Assembly: GCF_004216915.1 (NCBI RefSeq)
Contig: NZ_SGXD01000002.1
Location: forward strand, 372,001-436,000
Reading direction: 5' to 3'
DNA: 64,000 nucleotides
Source of the DNA: Motilibacter rhizosphaerae
GTDB lineage: Bacteria; Actinomycetota; Actinomycetes; Motilibacterales; Motilibacteraceae
The position numbers and the translations under genes are program-made. Each line of letters begins with the position of its first letter. Position 1 is the first letter of the stretch. The notes under the pieces were generated by a model. The model saw nothing but the letters and a program-made list of their open reading frames with translations. It ran no database searches and had not been told where the DNA came from. This document shows, in pieces, positions 16,289 through 43,312 of the stretch.

Positions 16289-16341
16289 ACCGAACAAGGG
16301 CACCCAGTGCGCCTCCCAGCAGCACTGGGGCGCCCCGTTCG
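16289..16341. repeat. Intergenic palindrome, copy A
   Basis: The left arm begins CGAACAAGGGCACCCAGTGC (16291-16310). The right arm (about 16321-16341, CACTGGGGCGCCCCGTTCG) is its imperfect reverse complement. The first 20 bases of the left arm are identical to copy C at 17538-17557, beyond the next gene. It could form a long hairpin. Confidence 0.8.
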
Positions 16342-16372
16342 ATCCGGGGCCTCGCCGAGGGGCCACCCCCGG

Positions 16373-16427
16373 ACTGAACGGGGGCACCCAGTGCCCCTCC
16401 GGGCGCGACTGGGGCACCCTGTTCGGA
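16373..16427. repeat. Intergenic palindrome, copy B
   Basis: This is a second member of the same family, about 30 bases after copy A. The left arm is CTGAACGGGGGCACCCAGTG (16374-16393). The right arm contains GACTGGGGCACCCTGTTCGG (16407-16426). It is more diverged than copies A and C but keeps the GGGCACCCAGTGC core. Confidence 0.75.
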
Positions 16428-16547
16428 CGGTAGCCAGCGAGGGCGGGTGCGCTGTCCACACGGCTGTGGTGTGCGGTTCCGCGGGCATGTCCACAACCGG
16501 TACGCGGCAGGGCGACCGGGGCGCGGCACCAGCGCAGGCTGTGCCCC

Positions 16548-17522
16548 GTGCCACGACGAAGCCTGCGCACCGACTCGGCGCTCATCGCCGACCTCGCCGA
16601 GCACCGCGACGGCGTCACGACCCTGGCCGAGCTCGCGCAGATGGGGATCGCCGCGCCCACTGCTGTCGGGCGCTGCCGCCCAGGCGGCCCGTGGCAGTCA
16701 CCGCTTCCCGGAGTGGTCGTGCTCCACAGCGGTCGTCCGAGCCAGGGGCAGCTGGAGCGGGCCGCCCTGGCCTACGCGGGCGACGGCTCGGCGCTGACCG
16801 GGATCGCGGCCCTGCGCCGAGCTGGCGTGCCACGCCTCCCTCCGCCCGAGCCCATCCGCGTGCTCGTGCCCCACGAGCACCGTCGGCAGAGCCGCAGGTT
16901 CGTGGTCGTGGAGCGGACCCGCCGCATGCCGGAGGACCTGGACGTCGTACGCGGACTGCCCTGTGCGCCGCCAGCCCGGGCGCTCGTCGACGAGTGCCGA
17001 CAGCTGCACGCACCCGCCGAGGTGCGCGCCCTCGTCGCGGCGGCCGTCCAGTCGAGCGTCTGCAGCGTCAGCGAGCTGCGCGAGGAGCACGCTGCTGCGG
17101 CGAACAGGCGCAAGGCCCTCATGGCGATGGTGCTGGCCGAGGTCGGCGCCGGAGTCCGTTCCGTGGCCGAGGGGGACGCTCGGCGGGTGGTGCTCCGCTC
17201 GGGGCTGCCGCAGCCGCTGTGGAACGTCGACCTGCTCGACCAGCACGGCCGCTTCCTCGCCCGGCCCGACGCCTGGTGGGACGAGCTGGCCGTCGCCCTC
17301 GAGATCGACTCGGTCGAGTGGCACATCAGCCCCAGCGACTACCTGCGGACGCAGGACCGGCAGCGCCGGCTGACCGAGCTGGGGGTGCTCGTGGTCCCTG
17401 TCGCACCAGGGGAAGTGCGCCGTCGGCCGCAGGCGCTGGTCGAGCAGCTCAGGCGCACCCTGGCCGCGGCAGCCCTGCGACCGCGGCCAGCGGTGCAGGT
17501 GGTCACGCGCGCAGCGGCGTGA
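16548..17522 (+). CDS. AbiEi-like winged-helix / Vsr-like nuclease-fold protein
   Basis: This 324-residue protein is of a type common and variable in actinobacteria. The N-terminal part (about 5-75) looks like the AbiEi antitoxin winged helix: LIADLAEHRDGVTTLAELAQMG, then VVVLHSGRPSQ. The C-terminal part (about 215-300) contains RPDAWWDELAVALEIDS and DRQRRLTELGVLVV, matching the Asp...Glu-x-Asp pattern of DUF559/Vsr-type PD-(D/E)XK folds. No toxin partner is adjacent, so a classical AbiE pair is not present. The gene is bracketed by related palindromic repeats. The role is unknown; defence or selfish-element functions are inference. The start is GTG 16548, without a strong ribosome site. Confidence 0.65.
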   Translation: MPRRSLRTDSALIADLAEHRDGVTTLAELAQMGIAAPTAVGRCRPGGPWQSPLPGVVVLHSGRPSQGQLERAALAYAGDGSALTGIAALRRAGVPRLPPPEPIRVLVPHEHRRQSRRFVVVERTRRMPEDLDVVRGLPCAPPARALVDECRQLHAPAEVRALVAAAVQSSVCSVSELREEHAAAANRRKALMAMVLAEVGAGVRSVAEGDARRVVLRSGLPQPLWNVDLLDQHGRFLARPDAWWDELAVALEIDSVEWHISPSDYLRTQDRQRRLTELGVLVVPVAPGEVRRRPQALVEQLRRTLAAAALRPRPAVQVVTRAAA

Positions 17523-17538
17523 CCACCCGCCCAGGAGC

Positions 17539-17587
17539 GAACAAGGGCACCCAGTGCACGTGGGAGTGCTACTGGGTGCCCTTGTTC
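17539..17587. repeat. Intergenic palindrome, copy C (perfect 17-base arms)
   Basis: Arms GAACAAGGGCACCCAGT (17539-17555) and ACTGGGTGCCCTTGTTC (17571-17587) are exact reverse complements around a 15-base loop. The element lies between the convergent stops of the AbiEi-like gene and glyS and would act as a two-way terminator. It shares 20 identical bases with copy A on the other side of the AbiEi-like gene. Confidence 0.9.
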
Positions 17588-17608
17588 ACACGAGAAGGGA
17601 GCGCGGCG

Positions 17609-43251: not shown

Positions 43252-43312
43252 TCCCCAACGTTGTGGCCCTGGTTCGCGTCCTGGCACCGAACCAGGGCCA
43301 CAACGTTGGGGA
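43252..43312. terminator. Perfect 25-base inverted repeat between convergent genes
   Basis: TCCCCAACGTTGTGGCCCTG and the five bases after it (43252-43276) are exactly complementary to 43288-43312, around an 11-base loop. It fills the gap between the DUF4870 stop (43244) and the hemW stop (43313). It would end both transcripts. Its layout resembles the palindromes near 16300 and 17560, with a different core. Confidence 0.9.

Follow-up and report, generated by a model that had tools for sequence, protein, structure and literature searches.

Palindromic repeats of their own genome bracket many actinobacterial genes for AbiEi-EDxHD fusion proteins

Results

The stretch of DNA analysed here (the window) comprises 64,000 nt of the Motilibacter rhizosphaerae genome. 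Between a gene for a zinc-dependent dehydrogenase and glyS, which encodes a class II tRNA synthetase, it contains a plus-strand gene with a GTG start codon (16548–17522). Profile matches, a structure model and conservation indicate that its 324-amino acid product consists of an AbiEi-like DNA-binding part (residues 7–200; 16566–17147, plus strand) and a Vsr/EDxHD-fold nuclease domain (residues 205–310; 17160–17477, plus strand). Both parts had been proposed in an earlier note on this DNA, and the model, calculated with 30 homologues as input (mean pLDDT 92.8), agrees with it; a missing nuclease fold, which would have refuted the note, is not what the model shows. Residues 7–200 of the model match the AbiEi antitoxin structure 6y8q (Z 11.9, rmsd 5.5, 185 residues aligned), and a PADLOC AbiEi profile detects this part with an E value of 5e-11. 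Residues 205–310 resemble the catalytic domain of the homing endonuclease I-Bth0305I (3r3p; Z 12.2, rmsd 2.4, 97 residues) and Vsr (1cw0, Z 10.3, 23% identity; 1vsr, Z 9.4). As modelled, the window protein is an AbiEi-like part joined to a nuclease fold, for which a nuclease function is predicted. Glutamate 208, aspartate 241 and histidine 259, conserved in 28, 29 and 25 of the 30 homologues, respectively, are what we take to be the active-site residues of the EDxHD type; their placement in the active site is by position, not by residue-by-residue superposition.

With an alignment of seven homologues, Pfam returned MTES_1575 REase five times, AbiEi_4 and AbiEi_1 twice each and DUF559 once; the window protein alone produced only a weak match to MTES_1575 REase (E 0.006). 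One PADLOC AbiEi profile matched all seven homologues. Neither NCBIfam nor PHROGs yielded a family for the protein, and a profile built from the 30-homologue alignment found no solved structure by sequence. A study of HEPN proteins introduced MTES_1575 REase as a new domain of the Vsr type, as far as its available text goes (PMC3710099).

Three palindromic units of a REP-like family (family 1), to which no strand is assigned, bracket the gene. Units A (16291–16341) and B (16375–16425) form a tandem pair, 84 nt apart, upstream of it, and unit C (17538–17588) lies between the gene and glyS. All are 51 nt long and in register, and over 60 nt the other two copies are 80% and 68% identical to A. 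The earlier note had described these three related palindromes, and its details were found in the sequence: A and C have CGAACAAGGGCACCCAGTGC exactly in common, and C possesses perfect 17-nt arms separated by a 15-nt spacer. Single-strand folding was more stable than that of dinucleotide shuffles for each unit (z scores of −5.3, −3.6 and −10.0 for A, B and C, respectively), and none of 200 shuffles folded as well.

The family extends well beyond the trio known from the earlier note. In the 4.3-Mb window genome (G000) the 11-mer GGGCACCCAGT occurs 51 times (31 forward, 20 reverse), as compared with 4 occurrences of the same pattern read backwards. There are at least 32 palindromic units at 21 places, including the three of the window, a lower bound as only the surroundings of exact 11-mer matches were considered; three single 11-mer matches (L037, L050, L054) are not surrounded by a palindrome. 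Units often occur as tandem pairs about 74 bp apart. Their outer arms (GAACrrGGGCACCCAGT...ACTGGGTGCCC..GTTC) are strongly conserved and their middle is variable. According to crude gene calls, 14 of the 32 units are located in gaps between tandem genes, 11 between convergent and 3 between divergent genes, and 4 inside a called ORF; two of the three in divergent gaps are A and B. Similar calls in the congeneric genome G001 placed 3 of 17 units in tandem and 9 in convergent gaps. Base-pair changes among the 32 family 1 units gave no support for an RNA structure beyond that expected from column make-up. By eye, the flanks of units in both genomes appear C-rich on the 5' and G-rich on the 3' side, which could reflect a target preference or merely the composition of gene ends. 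An insertion of units into the loops of older terminator hairpins was considered and rejected, left and right flanks being no more complementary than shuffled pairs (1676 and 2062 of 5000 permutations as high).

The window genome encodes two further homologues, which are 29–30% identical to the window protein (nearest, 29%). One of them (C2:670734) is flanked by palindromes of the type CCCAACGTyGTG..CTGGT, of which additional copies are present at C2:510998, C2:415258 and C3:584719 (eight arm matches at five places in the approximately 455 kb searched). The copy at C2:415258 lies within the window (43253–43311, no strand assigned) and is a 59-nt unit with 24-nt arms. The other homologue (C2:101551) is preceded by four copies of a CGTGATCATGCA repeat and followed by three inverted ones; with up to 4 mismatches, this repeat has 34 matches in about 455 kb of the genome. 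Backwards controls for the second and third family gave no match in the same approximately 455 kb. As each of the three homologues has a two-sided repeat of its own, three homologues correspond to three repeat families. Dense clusters of the CGTGATCATGCA repeat, arranged head-to-tail and inverted, were noticed at C2:300504–300888 (L194), C2:348996–349257 (L196) and C3:272683–272885 (L042), and are reminiscent of higher-order REP clusters.

Homologues are present in 24 of 30 relatives searched. The closest ones (46–52% identity; G001, G003, G018, G004 and G009) stand beside palindromes of other sequences, found on both sides wherever both flanks were readable, and a second homologue in G003 likewise adjoins palindromes of different sequence. 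Testable loci numbered 35 (the window locus and all but one of the 35 from a named-genome scan); at 13 of them, upstream and downstream flanks had a segment in common with a score of at least 21, versus 4 of 754 slid frames. For further, mostly remote homologues (22–36% identity) the figures at a score of at least 18 were 22 of 39 versus 2 of 344 slid frames, with one homologue lacking a downstream flank (L230) counted as a miss. Pooled and freed of genes fetched twice, 88 homologues included 47 with a two-sided repeat at a score of at least 18 (43 at ≥20, 34 at ≥25), as compared with 1 of 159 neighbouring genes, the pooled score being the best of several gene-end definitions and hence slightly more lenient than that of the control. 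Positives came from Pseudonocardia, Amycolatopsis, Actinomycetospora, Jiangella and Serinicoccus, among others. The remaining 41 of the 88 homologues were below the threshold; three among them (L060, L032, L219), with scores of less than 18, are nonetheless flanked on either side by palindromes whose divergence keeps them from being counted. The flank scores of L071, L076 and L083 were dropped as contig-end artefacts, and L100 was left out of the counts owing to a short flank.

On a tree of 84 proteins, genes with flank repeats are found on both sides of the midpoint root. They are clustered nonetheless, with 19 changes of state versus a mean of 27.8 after shuffling (0 of 500 shuffles as low), and flank repeats are absent throughout a group of 13 proteins, 12 from Streptomyces and 1 from Actinacidiphila (support 90, not starred). 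Similarity of the palindromes tracks that of the proteins weakly (Spearman 0.14 for 43 genes; 6 of 2000 permutations as high).

By hand count in the 30-homologue alignment, flank repeats accompany 16 of the 25 proteins with E208, D241 and H259 and none of the 5 in which these residues have decayed (L104, L107 and L118 from Streptomyces, L101 from Saccharomonospora, and L110), three of which are not independent as they come from the same genus. Motif and repeats may have been lost jointly in these five proteins, which make up a small sample. A simple nuclease-motif pattern was not associated with flank repeats among the 88 proteins (Fisher p 0.25 at score 18 and 0.64 at score 20); this pattern misses some family members, and at L093 and L111 gene ends running into the downstream palindrome had hidden the repeats. 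Because of such overlaps the flank scores were recomputed after the motif test.

The flanking palindromes are in turn members of repeat families of the respective genome, as revealed by counts of matches that include arms and strands and are not numbers of elements. With up to 3 mismatches, the G001 palindrome has 41 matches in its own genome and none in 15 others, among them the congener G000. The palindrome of Amycolatopsis suaedae is found 90 times in its genome and once in 15 others, and that of Pseudonocardia oroxyli 283 times and not at all in 16 others. For G016 there are 120 matches at home and 0–7 in each of 16 other genomes, with backwards controls reaching 14. The Jiangella and Serinicoccus palindromes are of low copy number (11 matches, with at most 2 elsewhere and 2 for its own backwards control, and 7 matches, with up to 4 elsewhere, respectively). 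All five paralogues of G016 carry two-sided palindromes of their own, two pairs of which are partly alike. Units read individually begin with C/TGAAC in family 1, TTGGCAC in G001 and GTCCGA in G016.

Many genes of this kind are bracketed by a palindrome that belongs to a repeat family of their own genome, and this pairing of gene and repeat holds across actinobacteria as well as within single genomes. The REP/RAYT-like arrangement proposed in the earlier note is borne out in that palindrome families go with many of the homologues. Its second refuting condition, copies distributed with no tie to such genes, calls for caution: individually, most family 1 copies of the window genome lie away from any such gene, just as REPs do from RAYTs, and the link emerges across genes and genomes. 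Being hairpins near gene ends, the palindromes might be ordinary terminators or chance repeats with no relation to the gene. The frequencies among neighbouring genes and slid frames, and the different palindromes of different paralogues in one genome, refute this reading as far as such controls go, and leave it a probability close to nil. Barely more credible is an AbiE-type toxin–antitoxin or defence gene with the palindromes as operators for its own control: the AbiEi matches by profile and structure would fit, but no toxin gene adjoins the window gene, whose neighbours at this locus are the dehydrogenase and tRNA synthetase genes, and the palindromes occupy both flanks and recur elsewhere in tens to hundreds of copies.

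The gene adjoins glyS in eight genomes (the window and L057, L058, L059, L060, L061, L063 and L085; the entries L086, L087 and L088 duplicate L061, L060 and L059). The palindromes differ among most of these loci, the same one being found in L060 and L063, which are from one genus. A gene that stays beside glyS while the palindromes mostly differ indicates that the gene is inherited in place and the repeats are replaced. A search with the window protein, which remote homologues may escape, detected a homologue in one of 72,556 plasmid records and in none of 50,697 phage records.

Between the congeners G000 and G001 the replacement is far-reaching. Fifteen of the 17 G001 places are away from the gene, and none coincided with a G000 place in a blastn comparison with the 10-kb G000 surroundings; likewise, none of the three non-gene places in a syntenic stretch of the two genomes coincides. 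Two sites, the G000 pair C2:320882 and G001 C12:253073, have no unit of the respective family in the other genome, gain and loss being indistinguishable. The G000 site opposite G001 C12:94947 had been a candidate for an empty site and was rejected, as the second G000 family has a palindrome there. In P. oroxyli, one gap contains tandem monomers and an inverted pair; in two congeners the corresponding gap is shorter and lacks these units, and in one of the two it includes a run of N.

More closely related genomes behave differently. G016 and G039 are 89.8% identical over 190 kb, and in the compared stretch each of the four G039 units corresponds to a unit in G016 (in one case in rearranged form), whereas two of seven G016 units have no equivalent in G039. 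No fresh insertion was caught in this stretch. A previous count, according to which five of seven G039 places were not shared with G016, was discarded as an artefact of a strict pattern, since degenerate units yield four counterparts out of four. Among three species of the genus, the number of places with the strict G016 palindrome is 33, 7 and 0. Repeat turnover thus appears slow when species are close, and complete when they are more distant. At G016 C1:929654–930364 (L309) a segment of about 630 bp that includes a small ORF is enclosed by two units, and G039 has a single unit and no such segment at the corresponding place (C7:343670, L321), a difference that looks like recombination between units, or capture.

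These comparisons bear on two further explanations. Gene and flanking palindromes might constitute an insertion element with terminal inverted repeats, solitary palindromes being its non-autonomous relics. The repeats on both sides of the gene and the segment of about 630 bp between two G016 units where G039 has one could be taken in its favour. However, the gene has remained next to glyS in eight genomes, the other homologues in its own genome share only 29–30% identity with it, and a single plasmid record and no phage record of those searched contained a homologue, so that we regard such an element as very unlikely; the small module suggested earlier, if taken to move as a unit, is not supported on the same grounds. 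Alternatively, the protein might be a domesticated palindrome binder that serves chromosome structure, transcription ends or repair and promotes no copying now, with palindromes that are bidirectional terminators or landmarks spread by another or a past process. That the units are strong hairpins, located mostly in tandem or convergent gaps in G000 and G001, and that G016 and G039 have these places largely in common is in line with this explanation. By contrast, the replacement of a whole-genome repeat between congeners (41 matches versus 0) while the gene stays calls for copying, and where one genome has several paralogues whose repeats differ, partner-specific spread accounts for this better than a single terminator function does. 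We consider the domesticated binder rather unlikely.

Discussion

We propose that the palindromes are dispersed repeats of the REP/REPIN kind and that the gene is their dedicated partner, a non-transposase counterpart of RAYT acting by recognition, cutting and repair-copying; we give this reading a probability of roughly 0.6. The AbiEi-like part would most likely recognize the cognate palindrome, be it as duplex, cruciform or single-stranded hairpin. The EDxHD nuclease domain would then nick or cut at the palindrome or at a target, and in the course of repair a copy of the repeat would be placed at new intergenic sites, in a manner resembling homing. Such a route is attractive because the nuclease domain matches a homing endonuclease, although a fold alone proves no function. 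We infer that the protein binds the palindrome, cuts DNA and by cutting drives copying.

A more far-reaching version, to which we accord slightly less than even chances, is that actinobacteria harbour a widespread class of REPs made and spread by a nuclease instead of a transposase. Each AbiEi-EDxHD protein would cut its own palindrome or a target, new sites would receive the palindrome through repair, and proteins labelled AbiEi antitoxin or DUF559-type would in fact be the engines of genome-specific repeat families.

The origin and spread of REP-like repeats is an old question, and the only dedicated enzyme named in the cited papers, as far as their available text goes, is the RAYT transposase; the CGTC superfamily of REPs is said there to have no dedicated enzyme (PMC3733652). 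The bracketing of genes by palindromes suggests a so far undescribed origin and mode of spread for palindromic repeats. A further kind of partner gene, unrelated to RAYT and with many versions and many cognate repeats, amounts to a set of natural replicates, among which swaps of protein and repeat can reveal how recognition is encoded and what the mechanism is. Many actinobacterial proteins scored as AbiEi defence by PADLOC profiles would have to be read differently as well. A literature search that had preprints and most subscription papers outside its scope found no paper in which dispersed palindromes are linked to proteins of the AbiEi, DUF559, MTES_1575 or Vsr-like kinds.

Type IV (AbiE) toxin–antitoxin systems have a gene for the toxin AbiEii beside that for AbiEi. 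The window protein shares the fold and profile of the AbiEi antitoxin in residues 7–200 but differs from it by the additional predicted nuclease domain, by the missing toxin gene at the window locus and by its link to repeats. Residues 205–310 share the modelled fold and the conserved E, D and H with Vsr, MTES_1575 REase and I-Bth0305I. EDxHD-type enzymes of this kind include mismatch-repair and intron-borne ones. The window protein is neither; its domain is joined to an AbiEi part and associated with palindromic repeats. From an insertion sequence one would expect gene and ends moving as a unit, near-identical copies and presence on plasmids and phages, which is not what was found.

The closest parallel is the REPtron, i.e., REPs or REPINs together with RAYT. 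According to the available text of the respective papers, RAYT genes are distinct and single-copy, each standing next to a REPIN class of its own (PMC3116915), and the REPIN partner is an HUH transposase (PMC8266576). Common to both systems are dispersed extragenic palindromes that occur singly, as inverted pairs or in clusters, and a distinct gene located next to the repeat class that belongs to it, with several such pairs per genome and the gene in single copy and inherited in place. They differ in the partner, which here is an AbiEi-EDxHD fusion and not an HUH/Y1 transposase, and in the hairpin foot, where the family 1, G001 and G016 units read carry neither a GTAG nor a CGTC tag. The Y1 transposase family PF01797 was found in none of 14 non-Streptomyces genomes (a set without G016), positive controls including E. 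coli being detected, and in one of two Streptomyces genomes, whose homologue (L090) is without flank repeats. GTAG REPs have been reported from Proteobacteria, Cyanobacteria, Chloroflexi and the PVC group in the available text of the survey concerned (PMC3733652). CGTC-tagged REPs, described there as lacking a dedicated transposase, are similar in being dispersed palindromes, mostly inverted dimers, without RAYT. However, that text names a dedicated gene for none of them and does not contain the word Actinobacteria, whereas the repeats studied here have a partner gene and no tag. The system is neither a REPtron nor a complete AbiE toxin–antitoxin system; it works like a REP/REPIN–RAYT pair with an unrelated protein.
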